The position numbers and the translations under genes were made by a program. Below are positions 37,869 through 44,264 of a DNA stretch of 50,844 bases, in pieces. This DNA comes from Bacteroidaceae bacterium. Its GTDB lineage: Bacteria; Bacteroidota; Bacteroidia; Bacteroidales; Bacteroidaceae. The DNA lies in assembly GCA_017521285.1 (NCBI GenBank), contig JAFXDG010000070.1, forward strand, positions 1-50,844, read 5' to 3'. Numbering within the stretch: the first letter of the stretch is position 1; each line of letters opens with the position of its first letter. The notes under the pieces are model-generated. The model had not been told where the DNA came from, did not search any database, and saw only the letters and a list, made by a program, of their open reading frames with translations.

Positions 37869-38912
37869 TTAATTATTCTCCGGACGGAGTTGGCGAACAG
37901 TAACAGCGGTCTGCCACATTTCGCTTTCGCGCAGAGCCTTCAACTCTTCTTCCAACTTCTCGCGATAGTCAGGTTTTGAGTTGCTATCGATTGAAATCTG
38001 AGCTTCGTTACCACACTTCACGCTGGCATAGAGTTTTTCAACCACAGGCTTGATGGCATCGTGGAAAGGACCCATCCAGTCGAGTGCACCACGCTGGGCT
38101 GTAGTCGAACAATTGGCGTACATCCAATCCATACCGTTCTTGGCAAAGAGGGGCATCAGTGACTGAGTCAATTCCTCTACGGTCTCGTTGAATGCTTCAG
38201 AGGGAGTGTGTCCATTTTCACGAAGCACTTCGTACTGAGCCAAGAGCAATCCCTGGATAGCACCCATAAGTGAACCACGCTCACCAGTAAGGTCAGAAGT
38301 TGCTTCACGGATGAAGGTTGTCTCGAACAGATAACCTGAACCTACACCGATACCGAGAGCCAATGTACGTTCAAGGGCACGGCCGGTATAGTCCTGATAA
38401 ACGGCGTATGAAGAGTTCAAGCCGCGGCCTTCGAGGAACATAGTACGGAGTGATGTACCAGAACCCTTGGGAGCTACCATGATAACGTCGATATCTGTGG
38501 GAGGAACCACACCTGTGCGGTCATTCCATGTGATGGCAAATCCGTGAGAGAAGTAGAGGGCCTTGCCCGGAGTCAGATAAGGTTTGATGGTGGGCCATAC
38601 ACTCATCACCGCTGCATCAGAGAGCAAGCACATAATGATTGTACCCTTCTCACAAGCCTCTTCGATAGAGAACAGCGTCTCACCCGGTACCCATCCGTCA
38701 GATACAGCCTTGTCGTAAGTCTTTCCCTGACGCTGGCCAACGATTACATTGAAACCATTATCGCGCAGGTTCAATGACTGACCAGGACCTTGCACACCAT
38801 AACCGATAACGGCAATGGTCTCATTCTTCAACACTTCACGTGCCTTTTCCAAAGGAAACTCTTCGCGGGTCATCACATTTTCGATAACACCGCCAAAATT
38901 CAATTGTGCCAT
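37869..38912 (-). CDS. ilvC: Ketol-acid reductoisomerase
   Basis: NAD(P)H- and Mg-dependent isomeroreductase, second step of valine/isoleucine synthesis. Rossmann motif IAVIGYGVQGPGQSLNLRDNG (about 33-53), substrate region VAPKGSGTSLRTMFLEGRG, and the metal-binding domain SDLTGERGSLMGAIQG with Asp and Glu ligands; a second acidic site is FNETVEELTQ. 347 residues, class I size. Last gene of the ilv cluster, separated from the thioesterase gene by 137 bp that hold an inverted repeat, so its expression may be partly independent. Confidence 0.95.
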   Translation of the reverse strand: MAQLNFGGVIENVMTREEFPLEKAREVLKNETIAVIGYGVQGPGQSLNLRDNGFNVIVGQRQGKTYDKAVSDGWVPGETLFSIEEACEKGTIIMCLLSDAAVMSVWPTIKPYLTPGKALYFSHGFAITWNDRTGVVPPTDIDVIMVAPKGSGTSLRTMFLEGRGLNSSYAVYQDYTGRALERTLALGIGVGSGYLFETTFIREATSDLTGERGSLMGAIQGLLLAQYEVLRENGHTPSEAFNETVEELTQSLMPLFAKNGMDWMYANCSTTAQRGALDWMGPFHDAIKPVVEKLYASVKCGNEAQISIDSNSKPDYREKLEEELKALRESEMWQTAVTVRQLRPENN

Positions 38913-39049: not shown

Positions 39050-39790
39050 TTATACTAACACCACCTTACTACGCACCACCACTTCCGTGCCGTTCTTGCG
39101 CACTTCGATGTCGTATTCATTCTCGGCCACCTCTTCGCGATAGAAGCTGAGGGTGTCGCCATAGTAGCTTTCAGCCACATAAGCCATCTCGAAACGGCGG
39201 ATACTCTTTTCTTTGAACGTATCCATGGGGAAAAGGTTGAGGATGTGTTCGATGTACTTGATGCTGTTCACGTGTCCGTTGATGTCGATGTCGCTATAAC
39301 GCGTCTGATACACCTCCACGGGCATGTCGGTAGTCACTTTGATGCGGCCGGGCTTTTCGATGGGGCACTCTTTGTCACACACATAGTCAGTGATACTTCC
39401 TCCATGCAGAGTCAACAAATCAGCAGGTTTGCGCGTCTCCATGCTTATCATGGCCCACACCGAACGTGCATAGCCGATGGCCCTCCCCTCTTTGTTGAGA
39501 ATGGCAAAGTTACGGTCGGTGAAGAGGCGATAGACATTCTCCACCCACGTCTCGATGCAGAACGGTTCGTATTGGCGAGGCATATCTTCCAGTTCGATAG
39601 CCAAGCGCGAGAGCACCCACGTATAGTGGTTCTCGTTCAACTCGGCAATGCCAAATCCGCGATCGGCCGCATGGAAACCCGCGCAATTGAGCAAATGATT
39701 ACCCAGCACACCCATCGTCAGTTTTCCCGTAAAATCCACATGAAAGGGTTCGGCCACGAAATTATATGTACCTATTTTATTGTCGGGCAT
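39050..39790 (-). CDS. Acyl-ACP thioesterase (FatA/FatB-like)
   Basis: Double hot-dog-fold thioesterase of the acyl-ACP family. First half: VDFTGKLTMGVLGNHLLNCAG, GIAELNENHYTWVLSRLAIE, WVENVYRLFTDRNFAIL; second half begins VYQTRYSDIDINGHVNSIKY, holding the Asp-Asn-His catalytic set (DINGHVN). 246 residues. The gene overlaps the ilvN stop by 14 bp, so it is translationally coupled inside the branched-chain operon. It would release free acids from ACP; whether it acts on branched chains is inference from the setting. Confidence 0.88.
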   Translation of the reverse strand: MPDNKIGTYNFVAEPFHVDFTGKLTMGVLGNHLLNCAGFHAADRGFGIAELNENHYTWVLSRLAIELEDMPRQYEPFCIETWVENVYRLFTDRNFAILNKEGRAIGYARSVWAMISMETRKPADLLTLHGGSITDYVCDKECPIEKPGRIKVTTDMPVEVYQTRYSDIDINGHVNSIKYIEHILNLFPMDTFKEKSIRRFEMAYVAESYYGDTLSFYREEVAENEYDIEVRKNGTEVVVRSKVVLV

Positions 39791-40337
39791 ATTCCTTTTC
39801 CTTATTATATTTTTCTTCGCGGAAATTCAGATATTCATTCAATCGCTCGAAGCAGCTGGTAGAGATGGCCACACGTCCCGAGCGCACGAATTGCAACACG
39901 ATGCCGAACTGCTGGAGTTCTTCGTAAAGTGAGGTTATCTCCTCACTCATGCCGTTCTTCTCCACTATGCAGAAGGTCGGGTTCACTTCCACCACACGTG
40001 CCGCATGGCGACGGATGATTTTCGATGCTACGGGATTGGCCTGAAAACCTGGTGTAGCCAGCTTATAGAGGGCAATCTCGTGCTGGTAGATTTCATCATC
40101 GGTGAAATAGTTGGCCTGAAGGACATCAATCTTGCGCTCAATCTGCTTCACCACCTTCTTTATCTCATCCTCCGTACACCATGCGGTGATAGTATATTTA
40201 TGGATACCCTTAATGGATGATGCCGACACGTTCAGGCTCTCAATATTGATTTGCCGACGGGTGAATACGGCTGTCACTTGGTTCAAAAGTCCTGCGATAT
40301 TCTCCGAGTGGACTATCAGTGTATATAATGTTTTCAT
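39777..40337 (-). CDS. ilvN: Acetolactate synthase regulatory subunit
   Basis: Small subunit that activates IlvB and confers valine feedback. N-terminal ACT domain (MKTLYTLIVHSENIAGLLNQ, ...TRRQINIESLNVSAS) and C-terminal ALS-type domain (HEIALYKLAT ... FQANPVASKIIRRHAARVVE). The start at 40337 is chosen because homologues begin at this ACT strand. The open frame extends another 34 codons to 40439, but those codons lie wholly inside the 35-bp inverted-repeat element and its spacer. 186 residues. Confidence 0.93.
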   Translation of the reverse strand: MKTLYTLIVHSENIAGLLNQVTAVFTRRQINIESLNVSASSIKGIHKYTITAWCTEDEIKKVVKQIERKIDVLQANYFTDDEIYQHEIALYKLATPGFQANPVASKIIRRHAARVVEVNPTFCIVEKNGMSEEITSLYEELQQFGIVLQFVRSGRVAISTSCFERLNEYLNFREEKYNKEKEYARQ

Positions 40338-40460
40338 AGACCCACCTAAATCCTCCCTGTGAGGGAGGACTTGCTTGGCATGTCCTGTTTTTTTATTTTC
40401 TTTAATCATATCAATTTCTATTATTAAGTCCTCCCTCACAGGGAGGATTTAGGTGGGTCT
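40338..40460. repeat. Perfect 35-bp inverted repeat between ilvB and ilvN
   Basis: 40338-40372 and 40426-40460 are exact reverse complements (arms starting AGACCCACCTAAATCCTCCC), with a 53-bp AT-rich spacer. Each arm contains its own small dyad (CCTCCCTGTGAGGGAGG). The ilvN ATG follows the element without a gap, so the arm includes the ilvN ribosome-binding region (GGAGGATTTAGGTGGGTCT). A related element is at 45856-45928. Confidence 0.9.
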
Positions 40461-40464
40461 GCAC

Positions 40465-42159
40465 TCAACACTCCAACAACATCTTGTCAACCGTTCCTCC
40501 CGGGGGGGTCATCGGCATCACGTTACCCTCTTCGATGACACACGCTTCAAGGATGAAGGGTCCATCTGTAGTGAGCATTTCGCGGATAGCCTCACGCAAC
40601 TCTGCGCGATCCGTCACACGGCGGGCAGGAATGTTATAGGCGGCTGCAATCTGCATATAGTCGGGATTCATCATCGGTGTAAACGAATAGCGGCGACCAA
40701 AGAACATGGCTTGCCATTGGCGCACATTACCGAGGTAGTTGTTGTTCATCAGAATCATCTTCACTGGTGCCTGTTGCTCCATGATGGTACCCAATTCTTG
40801 GATATTCATCTGGAATCCACCGTCACCCATGAACACACACACTTTGCGATCGGGACGTCCGAAGGTGGCACCGATGGCAGCAGGCATACCGAATCCCATG
40901 GTGCCAAGTCCGCCCGAAGTGACAATGCTACGTTCCTTCGTATATTTGAAGTAGCGGGCGGCCATCATCTGATTCTGTCCTACATCGGTCACCAATATAG
41001 CCTCGTGATTACTCTCTTCGCTGACGGCACGCACCACTTCACCCATGTTCAGAGGACCTTCCGTAGGATGTATCTCGGGTTCAATGACGCGCTTGTTCTC
41101 TATGGCATCATGTTCAGCAAAACTCTCAATCCACTCGGTGTGCTTGGCTTCGGTCACGAGGTTGGCCAGAGCCTTCAGTGTCAGTTTGCAATTACCCAAC
41201 ACCTCCACATCCACCTTCACATTCTTGTTGAATTCCGAAGGGTCAATGTCCATGTGGATTACTTTGGCTTGCTTGGCATAGGTGGCCAGATTGCCTGTCA
41301 CACGGTCATCAAAGCGCATACCCACGGCGATGAGTACGTCGCACTCGTTAGTCTTCACGTTAGGAGCAAGATTGCCATGCATACCCAACATACCTTTGTT
41401 CAGCGGGTGGTCAGACGAAAGGGCAGACAGGCCCAACAAGGTGCATCCGCATGGCAGGTCGGCCTTTTCCACCAAAGCACGCAGTTCGGCTTGCGCACCG
41501 CCCAGCTCTACACCCTGTCCTACAAGCACCAGCGGACGCTTGGCTTCGTTGATGAGTGCGGCAGCCTCTTCAAGGCTACCTTCCTTCGGCATAGGATTGG
41601 GATCGTAGCTACGGATGAAGTCCACCGTGGCAGGTTCATAATCCACCATCTCCACCTGTGCATTCTTGGTGAAGTCGAGCACCACAGGCCCCGGTCGTCC
41701 GTTCTTGGCCAAGAAGAAGGCACGAGCCACCGCCCAAGCCACATCCTTGGCCGAGCGAATCTGATAGCTCCACTTCGTGATGGGTTGTGTGATGCTCACG
41801 AGATCCACCTCCTGAAAGGCATCCGTACCCAGCATACCCGTAGGTACCTGTCCGGCAATCACCACGATGGGAGTACTGTCAATCATGGCATCGGCAATGC
41901 CCGTCAGTGTGTTCGTTGCACCGGGTCCGCTGGTCACCAGACAAACTCCCACCTCGCCCGACACACGGGCAAAGCCCTGTGCGGCATGGGTGGCACCCTG
42001 TTCGTGGCGCACCAGTATGTGATTCAATGTATCGCGATGACCATAGAGGGCATCAAACGTAGGCATGATACTTCCGCCCGGATAACCAAAGAGGGTCTTC
42101 ACCCCCTGGTGCTCCAACGAACGCATCAGCGCTTCTGCTCCTGTTATTTGTTGTTTCAT
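40465..42159 (-). CDS. ilvB: Acetolactate synthase catalytic subunit
   Basis: ThDP-dependent synthase making acetolactate and acetohydroxybutyrate. N-terminal ThDP-activating Glu lies in HEQGATHAAQGFAR; central FAD-type domain (GVELGGAQAEL ... MLGMHGNLAPNVKTNECDVL); C-terminal ThDP/Mg motif MGDGGFQMNIQELGTI...NNNYLGNVRQWQ. 564 residues, full length. Nine bp after ilvD. The C-terminus ends PPGGTVDKMLLEC just before the inverted-repeat element. Confidence 0.95.
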   Translation of the reverse strand: MKQQITGAEALMRSLEHQGVKTLFGYPGGSIMPTFDALYGHRDTLNHILVRHEQGATHAAQGFARVSGEVGVCLVTSGPGATNTLTGIADAMIDSTPIVVIAGQVPTGMLGTDAFQEVDLVSITQPITKWSYQIRSAKDVAWAVARAFFLAKNGRPGPVVLDFTKNAQVEMVDYEPATVDFIRSYDPNPMPKEGSLEEAAALINEAKRPLVLVGQGVELGGAQAELRALVEKADLPCGCTLLGLSALSSDHPLNKGMLGMHGNLAPNVKTNECDVLIAVGMRFDDRVTGNLATYAKQAKVIHMDIDPSEFNKNVKVDVEVLGNCKLTLKALANLVTEAKHTEWIESFAEHDAIENKRVIEPEIHPTEGPLNMGEVVRAVSEESNHEAILVTDVGQNQMMAARYFKYTKERSIVTSGGLGTMGFGMPAAIGATFGRPDRKVCVFMGDGGFQMNIQELGTIMEQQAPVKMILMNNNYLGNVRQWQAMFFGRRYSFTPMMNPDYMQIAAAYNIPARRVTDRAELREAIREMLTTDGPFILEACVIEEGNVMPMTPPGGTVDKMLLEC

Positions 42160-42168
42160 TTTTCTCTA

Positions 42169-43962
42169 TTATTCTACAATTCTCACTCCCCCTTTATCAG
42201 CCGAACTTACCATGCTAGCATAAGCACGAAGGCTCTTGCTCACCACCCGGTCACGGGTCACAGGGGCCATGGGACGTGCAGCCAGTTCTTCGTCGCTCAA
42301 CTTCACGTTGATGGTACGGTTGGGGATATCTATTTCAATGATGTCACCATCCACTATCTTGCCGATGTTTCCACCAGCAGCAGCTTCGGGTGAAATGTGT
42401 CCGATACTCAATCCCGAGGTTCCGCCCGAAAAGCGTCCGTCGGTAATCAGTGCACACTCCTTGCCCAAGTGTTTGCTCTTGATGTAGCTGGTGGGGTAAA
42501 GCATTTCCTGCATACCAGGTCCGCCCTTGGGACCTTCGTGGGTGATGACCACCACATCGCCACTCACCACCTTGCCACCCAAGATGCCGTCGCATGCAGC
42601 CTCTTGCGAGTCAAACACTTTGGCGGGTCCTGTAAACTTCCAGATGCTTTCGTCCACACCGGCGGTCTTCACCACACATCCGTCCTGTGCAATGTTACCC
42701 TTCAACACGGCCAATCCGCCATCCTTCGAGTAGGCATGAGCCAAGTCACGGATACATCCCTCGGCACGGTCGGTATCCAACTCCTTATAATAGGTCGCCT
42801 GCGAACCAAGCTTGATGTTGAACTTGCGGGCGGGGGCACTGTAGTAGATGCGAGAGTCAGAGAGGGTCTTCGTTATATCATACTTCGCTATCGCCTCACC
42901 CAACGTCATGCCATCCACGCGGCACACATTGGTGTCGAGCAATCCGCCTTTCGAGAGTTCGGCCAGGATGTTGAGGATACCACCAGCACGGTTCACGTCC
43001 TCGATATGGTACTTCTGTGTATTGGGAGCCACCTTGCAGAGGCAGGGCACACGACGCGAAAGCATGTCGATGTCGTCCATGGTGAAGTCCACACCCGCTT
43101 CGTTGGCAATAGCCAACAGGTGGAGTACCGTGTTGGTGGAGCCTCCCATGGCGATGTCCAGCGTCATGGCATTAAGGAATGCTTCACGCTTGGCTATATT
43201 CAGTGGCAACACACTCTCGTCGCCCTCCTCGTAATACCGATAGGCATTCTTCACGATGAGTGCCGCTGCATCCTTGAACAGTTGCGTACGGTTCTCGTGC
43301 GTGGCCAGAATGGTGCCGTTGCCCGGCAGAGCCAAGCCCAATGCCTCGTTCAAGCAGTTCATCGAATTGGCCGTAAACATGCCCGAGCAACATCCGCATC
43401 CCGGGCAGGCATGGTTCTCAATCTGTGCCACCTCCTCGTCGCTCACGCTCGTGTCGGCACTCTTGATCATGGCATCAATCAGGTCAAGGTGCTGTCCCTT
43501 CCATTCGCCAGCCTCCATCGGTCCACCACTCACGAACACAGTGGGGATATTCAGCCTCATGGCTGCCATCAGCATACCCGGGGTAATTTTGTCGCAATTC
43601 GATATGCACACCAGCGCATCGGCCTTGTGGGCATTGCACATATACTCTACCGAGTCGGCAATGATGTCGCGACTGGGCAGGGAGTAGAGCATACCGTCGT
43701 GTCCCATGGCGATACCATCATCTACAGCAATGGTATTGAACTCGGCGGCAAAGCATCCGAGCCGTTCAATCTCGGCCTTCACCAACTGGCCAATCTCGTG
43801 CAAGTGGGTGTGTCCGGGGACAAACTGGGTAAACGAATTGGCGATGGCAATAATGGGTTTACCAATCATTTCACGTTTCATGCCGTTGGCAACCCAAAGG
43901 GCGCGTGCCCCTGCCATACGGCGACCTTGTGTGCTGAATGCGCTACGCAATGGATGTTTCAT
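42169..43962 (-). CDS. ilvD: Dihydroxy-acid dehydratase
   Basis: Fe-S dehydratase, third step of valine/isoleucine synthesis. Cluster cysteines lie in [11 protein letters not shown] and [18 protein letters not shown]; other conserved blocks are [16 protein letters not shown] and [20 protein letters not shown]. 597 residues. First structural gene of the operon; about 170 nt of leader with the attenuator separate it from the leader peptide. Confidence 0.95.
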
Positions 43963-43977
43963 AATGTTCTTTTTTCA

Positions 43978-44037
43978 GTTAACGAGTTGACGAGTTGACA
44001 AGGATTATTCATTCTTCACTCTTCGTTCTTCACTCTA
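43978..44037. repeat. GAGTTGAC and heptamer repeats in the ilvD leader
   Basis: GTTAACGAGTTGACGAGTTGA (43978-43998) is followed by heptamers ATTATTC, ATTCTTC, ACTCTTC, GTTCTTC (44004-44031). A related GTTAAAAGAGTTGACTTGTT word precedes potB at 17545. Located between the attenuator terminator and ilvD. Confidence 0.7.
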
Positions 44038-44047
44038 AAATTCAAAA

Positions 44048-44073
44048 GCCTCCCTCACGTCAGTGAGAAAGGC
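44048..44073 (-). terminator. ilv attenuator terminator
   Basis: In the minus-strand RNA, GCCTTTCTCAC (44073-44063) and GTGAGGGAGGC (44058-44048) form an 11-bp stem (two G-U pairs; a flanking A-U makes 12) with the 4-nt loop TGAC, followed by TTTT. Its 5' arm is also fully complementary to GTGAGAAAGGC at 44136-44126. Confidence 0.8.
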
Positions 44074-44125
44074 TATCCGATTTACTTTTATCATTTATAT
44101 CTTCGTACATTCCATATATATACAC

Positions 44126-44136
44126 GCCTTTCTCAC
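44126..44136 (-). promoter_or_regulatory. Antiterminator arm overlapping the leader-peptide stop
   Basis: GTGAGAAAGGC pairs perfectly (11 bp) with the 5' arm of the terminator, 52 nt downstream. It begins in the last codons of the leader peptide (GCG-TGA), so a ribosome at the stop codon would cover it and one stalled at the upstream Leu/Val codons would leave it free. Confidence 0.7.
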
Positions 44137-44210
44137 GCTCTTGATGTTTCCACCACGACGTTGACCACCAATAGTAGGCTGCTAATTCGTGCAATGTTTG
44201 TACTCAGCAT
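44133..44210 (-). CDS. ilv operon leader peptide
   Basis: 25-codon ORF: ATG at 44210-44208, TGA at 44135-44133. The translation is MLSTNIARISS, then LLLVVNVVV, then ETSRA. Eight of the nine residues at 12-20 are Leu or Val, and two Ile lie earlier, as expected for a control peptide of branched-chain synthesis. It starts about 20 nt after the predicted transcription start and is preceded by the A-rich stretch AAAAGAAAAAGAGAT. Its stop codon overlaps the antiterminator arm. No function other than ribosome stalling is expected. Confidence 0.8.
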   Translation of the reverse strand: MLSTNIARISSLLLVVNVVVETSRA

Positions 44211-44233
44211 ATCTCTTTTTCTTTTAACGGCTG

Positions 44234-44264
44234 CAAAGGTAAGGCATTTTTCGTAATCAGCAAA
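44234..44264 (-). promoter_or_regulatory. Promoter of the ilv operon
   Basis: On the minus strand TTTG (44264-44261), 19 bp, TACCTTTG (44241-44234), an exact Bacteroidetes consensus. Predicted start near 44229, upstream of the leader peptide. Confidence 0.8.

Follow-up and report, generated by a model that had tools for sequence, protein, structure and literature searches.

Leader-peptide attenuators of branched-chain amino-acid synthesis are well known from enterobacteria, where they precede ilvGMEDA, ilvBN and leuABCD; the E. coli prototypes carry a protector or pause hairpin, and the E. coli leu leader uses rare CTA codons. Control codons of such leaders should be starvation-sensitive. The Corynebacterium ilvB-II motif is reported to combine a branched-chain-rich upstream ORF (uORF) with a terminator and an antiterminator before an ilv operon (PMC10272879). 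Within the Bacteroidota, RF01692 (Bacteroid-trp) of Rfam is the Bacteroidete tryptophan peptide leader RNA, listed as cis-regulatory in Bacteroidetes (PMC2864571). For Flavobacterium psychrophilum, a study reports strong indications that amino-acid operons are attenuated through leader peptides; pheA and hisG are among the sites for which it names structured 5' elements, and 'ilv' does not occur in its main text (PMC9723704). In the Bacteroides thetaiotaomicron transcriptome, long 5' UTRs are reported to contain sORFs that resemble leader peptides, and here too 'ilv' is absent from the main text (PMC7366714). A sequence-only reading of the DNA studied here had held that an ilv leader attenuator was not known to it from Bacteroidales. 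None of the papers listed in our searches of open-access literature deals with a Bacteroidales ilv leader, but the statement needs qualifying for the phylum, from which leader-peptide RNAs are known (RF01692) or have been suggested (PMC9723704). The kind of switch is long known, and its order-wide scope is the main interest. The work of Lopatovskaya et al. from 2010, and that of Merino and Yanofsky, may cover a Bacteroidales ilv leader.

We analysed a stretch of 50,844 nucleotides from a Bacteroidaceae bacterium (the window), in which an ilv operon and its leader region lie on the minus strand with rlmH directly upstream on the same strand. Comparative evidence leads us to propose, with a probability of about 0.92, that the leader of this operon is a ribosome-mediated transcription attenuator. 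Its features are as follows.

44264-44234, minus strand: promoter of the Bacteroidota type, TTTG-N19-TACCTTTG, read from the sequence and assigned by what we take to be the -33/-7 consensus.
44211..44228, minus strand: presumed 5' untranslated stretch, A-rich, judged from the sequence.
44210-44133, minus strand: leader ORF of 25 codons, ATG...TGA, encoding MLSTNIARISSLLLVVNVVVETSRA and then stop, supported by sequence, relatives and codon bias.
44136-44126, minus strand: segment 1, GTGAGAAAGGC, the 5' arm of the antiterminator, which includes the leader stop codon.
44073-44063, minus strand: segment 3, shared arm GCCTTTCTCAC, serving as antiterminator 3' arm and terminator 5' arm.
44058-44048, minus strand: segment 4, terminator 3' arm GTGAGGGAGGC, followed by TTTTGAAT.
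44040..44058, minus strand: segment 4 with the T-rich tract, supported by pairing, folding and sequence.
42169..43962, minus strand: ilvD, dihydroxy-acid dehydratase, the first structural gene (NCBIfam TIGR00110/NF009103).
40465..42159, minus strand: ilvB, acetolactate synthase large subunit (TIGR00118).
39777..40439, minus strand: ilvN, acetolactate synthase small subunit (TIGR00119), ORF as listed; the true start is probably downstream of the listed GTG.
39050..39790, minus strand: gene between ilvN and ilvC, without an NCBIfam match, which we take to encode a probable acyl-ACP thioesterase.
37869..38912, minus strand: ilvC, ketol-acid reductoisomerase (TIGR00465).

On re-reading the sequence, the promoter, the leader ORF and the three segments all lie on the minus strand exactly where the sequence-only reading had placed them; segments 1 and 3 are indeed exact 11-nt complements, and segment 4 pairs with segment 3, partly via G-U. 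The leader stop TGA sits within segment 1, and the control stretch (LLLVVNVVV) reads CTA CTA TTG GTG GTC AAC GTC GTG GTG. With G-U pairs allowed, dinucleotide shuffling of 44228-44030 produced a triple of upstream partner, shared segment and hairpin partner with a T-rich tract once in 5000 shuffles at 11 nt, never in 2000 at 9 nt and once in 2000 at 8 nt. Just past the terminator, 44002-44036 (GAGTGAAGAACGAAGAGTGAAGAATGA) is a dispersed repeat, in which 39 of the 47 other matches listed fall.

In the mechanism that we propose, RNA polymerase would, judging from the sequence, start near 44228 and a ribosome would begin the leader. With Leu-, Val- and Ile-tRNA charged, the ribosome would reach the stop codon and cover segment 1, upon which segment 3 would pair with segment 4 and transcription would end near 44045. 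A ribosome stalled on the Leu or Val codons would leave segment 1 free to capture segment 3 once made, and with these two segments paired the polymerase would read through into ilvD-ilvC. We expect the leader to be translated, the terminator to act in vivo and the operon to respond to starvation, and readthrough would be the default without leader translation.

The window has in common with the enterobacterial attenuators a leader ORF rich in codons for the product, a mutually exclusive antiterminator and intrinsic terminator, and rare CTA codons. It differs from them in its Bacteroidota promoter, in the absence of an obvious Shine-Dalgarno sequence from the stretch before the leader ORF (44211..44228, minus strand), in having no clear protector and, in the window type, in the position of segment 1 at or inside the ORF end; the likeness drawn here is one of logic. 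The ilvB-II motif, compared here by its description, shares the branched-chain uORF and the terminator and antiterminator before an ilv operon but belongs to a different phylum and operon. RF01692 is likewise a leader-peptide RNA before an amino-acid operon, and from the same phylum, but with Trp codons and another sequence. The F. psychrophilum leaders share phylum and proposed mechanism with the window but come from the Flavobacteriaceae.

IlvD is present in 262 of 301 genomes of the Bacteroidaceae family. We examined 90 ilvD upstream regions, made up of 30 loci from the IlvD search (the window included) and 60 selected to cover genera, all drawn from the better-scoring end of the family search, with a fixed finder that takes ATG ORFs of 12-50 codons with at least 7 of 11 residues Ile, Leu or Val and with TAnnTTTG no more than 70 nt upstream. 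An Ile/Leu/Val leader behind a Bacteroidota promoter was found in 53 of the 90 regions, whereas dinucleotide shuffling gave one in 6 of 1800 cases and the 65 control regions, taken ahead of hisG, trpB or thrA, gave none; at least two of these 65 are not truly upstream (L287 lies inside a gene and L248 has its gene cut at the contig edge). The finder detected no leader in 37 of the 90 regions; 28 of these belong to genera g6, g10, g12, g14, g15, g21, g22, g26 and g30, where none was found, while g11, g19 and g24 are mixed and the leaders of g17 and g20 were recognised by reading alone. A looser ORF list, which also admits GTG and TTG starts, served for reading and not for counts. A crude triple-segment finder that flagged 70 of the 90 regions was dropped, many of its hits being far-upstream chance matches, and enters no count.

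Both pairings could be followed in 41 non-redundant leaders out of 55. The antiterminator has standard pairs in 91.8% of cells, versus 42-61% with the partners slid by 1-3 columns, and the terminator in 93.5% versus 44-67%. Changes on both sides occur in 5 of 10 antiterminator pairs (1-2 in slid controls) and in 4 of 11 terminator pairs, with no clear excess over the 1-4 of the controls. The compensatory changes proposed earlier as support are thus present for the antiterminator and not clearly above controls for the terminator; segment 3 is nearly invariant, and helix variation is mostly one-sided. Since the aligned rows are related, the shuffle counts are not probabilities, and the count of 41 in-frame rows out of 41 is partly circular because the rows had been picked as ORFs. 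RNAalifold on alignment A1 returned the terminator alone, as expected for mutually exclusive helices.

The duplex test covered 87 leaders, 53 from the family and 34 picked from named loci, with near-identical copies among them. A script located the terminator in 85, the remaining two (L018 and L107) being placed by eye. The best antiterminator duplex exceeded all 100 shuffles in 48 of the 85 leaders and at least 95 of 100 in 76, and failed to exceed 95 in nine. It is not simply the segment expected by eye in L060, L149 and composite matches such as L014 and L133, and in lineages such as L119, L121 and L137 the logic is kept while the letters differ. The alignment across relatives that the sequence-only reading named as a check speaks for it: conservation extends to the short ORF, to its enrichment in Ile, Leu and Val and to both helices, and with them to a middle segment whose antiterminator competes with the terminator.

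These results bear on two other explanations of the hairpin. It could be a constitutive terminator or that of rlmH, with the short ORF a chance or untranslated one, and the position of rlmH just upstream on the same strand would fit. However, the interval from rlmH to the hairpin holds a promoter and a leader of a kind that recurs, such leaders are found before ilvD and not in the control regions (53/90 versus 0/65), and the antiterminator that competes with the hairpin is conserved; we regard this explanation as very unlikely. The leader could instead act mainly on translation of ilvD, by reinitiation or start-site masking, as might be suspected from several relatives in which the T-tract lies tens of nucleotides from the ilvD start. 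The hairpin and T-tract are conserved, however, and in the window ilvD begins about 80 nt beyond the T-tract, and we give an effect on translation scarcely any credence.

Attenuation by the ribosome places demands on geometry. We modelled the ribosome with an assumed footprint of -17 to +12 around the A-site codon, which is not a measurement. Placed at the stop codon, the modelled ribosome covers 84% of segment 1 on average, with coverage of 60% or more in 76 of 85 leaders and 100% in the window, whereas one at the first control codon covers 0% and one at the last control codon a mean of 8% (more than 30% in 11 of 85). Within this footprint model, the earlier proposal that a ribosome at the stop covers the first segment is borne out, and a control-codon ribosome hardly touches it. 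Judged by the best duplex, which misplaces a few rows (by eye, L060 and L149), 59 of 85 leaders have the end of segment 1 inside or beyond the stop codon; in the other 26 it comes before the stop, with 19-30 nt between the end of the stop and the terminator arm. Several g13 genomes, taken as Phocaeicola, have a gap of one base, through which the stop falls some 20 nt past the segment 1 start and not inside the segment.

Folding of the window RNA up to the end of segment 3 gives the antiterminator as the minimum-energy structure (-26.7 kcal/mol, z -3.4), and the RNA left free by a stop-codon ribosome folds into the terminator (-22.2, z -3.1). In the complete RNA the minimum-energy fold is the terminator with the ribosome at control codon 12, 14 or 20, and the antiterminator with the ribosome at codon 17 (Asn), the sole tested position to give it; the ribosome-free leader also folds with the terminator. 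Readthrough must therefore rest on the antiterminator forming first. The sequence-only reading saw no protector hairpin, which is mostly right, but segment 1 has a weak predicted pairing with the codons before it that is somewhat stronger than in shuffles. The value for pairing with preceding RNA is 0.67, against 0.54 for shuffles; 23 of 85 leaders exceed at least 29 of their 30 shuffles, and the window value of 0.58 is reached by 4 of 30. Segment 1 may thus have a weak protector pairing.

Beyond the family, we searched a named set of 80 ilvD loci split by title, some of whose records are shared with the family set (e.g. L099 and L022). With Bacteroidota titles, 33 of 67 loci have a leader under the promoter condition and 41 without it, the titles among these 41 including Bacteroides, Phocaeicola, Tannerella, Paludibacter, Alistipes, Heminiphilus, Saccharicrinis, Marinifilum and Odoribacter; the finder detected none in the 13 loci with other titles. 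A covariance model built from A1 and run with stricter filters matched, at E 0.01, 140 of 295 Bacteroidales genomes and 97 of 178 genera. The phylum-wide IlvD search at E 1e-100 reached 89 of 296 genomes and left out most more distant IlvD. Desulfobulbaceae-type ilvD loci (L148, L159, L161, L162, L164, L165, L171 and L177), at 66-71% identity to the window IlvD, have no leader by the finder, and gene transfer may be involved.

Twenty model-match regions, hand-picked and mostly second matches per genome, were opened, with gene names read from protein starts. Thirteen precede leuA-like genes, three ilvD, and one each an ilvE-, ilvB-, trpB- and glutamate synthase-like gene. The window's own genome provides an example at L179 (contig C88, 1639-1764, minus strand), where a Leu/Ile-rich leader MKQLLNINLLNIIILLERPVGGECCAVC stands before a leuA-like gene. 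Val makes up 2.3% of the residues in twelve leuA leaders, located with a model built on ilvD leaders, versus 18.1% in the 53 ilvD leaders. At L186, the match before the glutamate synthase-like gene, a short Lys/His-containing ORF is present without an Ile/Leu/Val leader, and model matches are therefore not always branched-chain attenuators. Two leader ORFs with terminator-like hairpins occur in series at L156, L168, L172, L189 and L190 (ilvD) and at L197 (ilvE); in L156, L168 and L172 the second leader is Ile/Val-rich with a single Leu.

Leaders of other composition precede other amino-acid operons. His leaders (at least 3 His in 6) are found in 14 of 28 hisG regions versus 0 of 127 others, Trp leaders in 12 of 22 trpB regions versus 0 of 133 others, and Met/Thr leaders in 5 of 15 thrA regions versus 1 of 140 others. 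His-rich leaders with terminator-like hairpins stand before hisG at L202, L200, L204, L210 and others, and the window's own genome has one (MILTITHRHHHFPIE). Met- and/or Thr-rich leaders before thrA-like genes (L288-L291, L294, L300 and L301) end like ACCCTTAGGGGT or ACCCCTCGGGGT, and no clear intrinsic terminator was seen behind the thrA leaders. Leader residues thus track the operon product across four operon types.

The choice of codons is biased as well. Across the 87 leaders, CTA makes up 23% of Leu codons (2% in window genes and 3% in the 80 ilvD genes), GTC 48% of Val codons (11% and 20%) and ATT 79% of Ile codons (38% and 38%). In alignment A1, some of the control-codon stretch shows strong nucleotide-level conservation, which could point to a switch that does not use the ribosome and is worked by a small molecule, by a leader-binding protein or, as in a T-box, by uncharged tRNA. 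Against this stand the codon bias, the agreement of leader residues with operon product, the modelled reach of a stop-codon ribosome over segment 1, and the Rfam results, and we consider such a switch most improbable. At gathering score the window leader has no match, to RF01692 or otherwise, the whole window giving four tRNA matches only, and a scan of the leader alone up to E 10 turned up three sub-threshold matches, all unrelated. Neither the window scan nor the leader scan matched a T-box or another Rfam riboswitch, and we rejected both. Among 20 loci scanned, the only matches were those of RF01692 to the trpB loci L231, L233 and L243, and in 12 additional ilv and leu loci a single sub-threshold match appeared, to an unrelated family. 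Leaving the trp leaders aside, no scanned ilv, leu, his or thr locus matches an Rfam 15 leader family, and Rfam annotation would therefore miss these leaders.

Together with the attenuator reading of the window, we put forward a wider and more tentative proposal, to which we give slightly less than even odds. Across the order, leader-peptide attenuators would act on branched-chain, His, Trp and possibly Thr operons; with a strong protector absent they would read through by default and be turned off only by a well-fed ribosome arriving at the stop in time, in either of two interchangeable geometries (with the stop codon at segment 1's 5' edge or some 20 nt beyond it), and some lineages would have two in series. 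The Bacteroidota are thought to start translation largely without Shine-Dalgarno pairing, and default readthrough on this scale, if true, would require close transcription-translation coupling in such a phylum. Being conserved, the leaders offer a way into the control of branched-chain amino-acid synthesis in Bacteroides and its relatives; they make transcription-translation coupling in Bacteroidota testable with a single reporter, and they suggest that leader peptides do much of the regulatory work order-wide.
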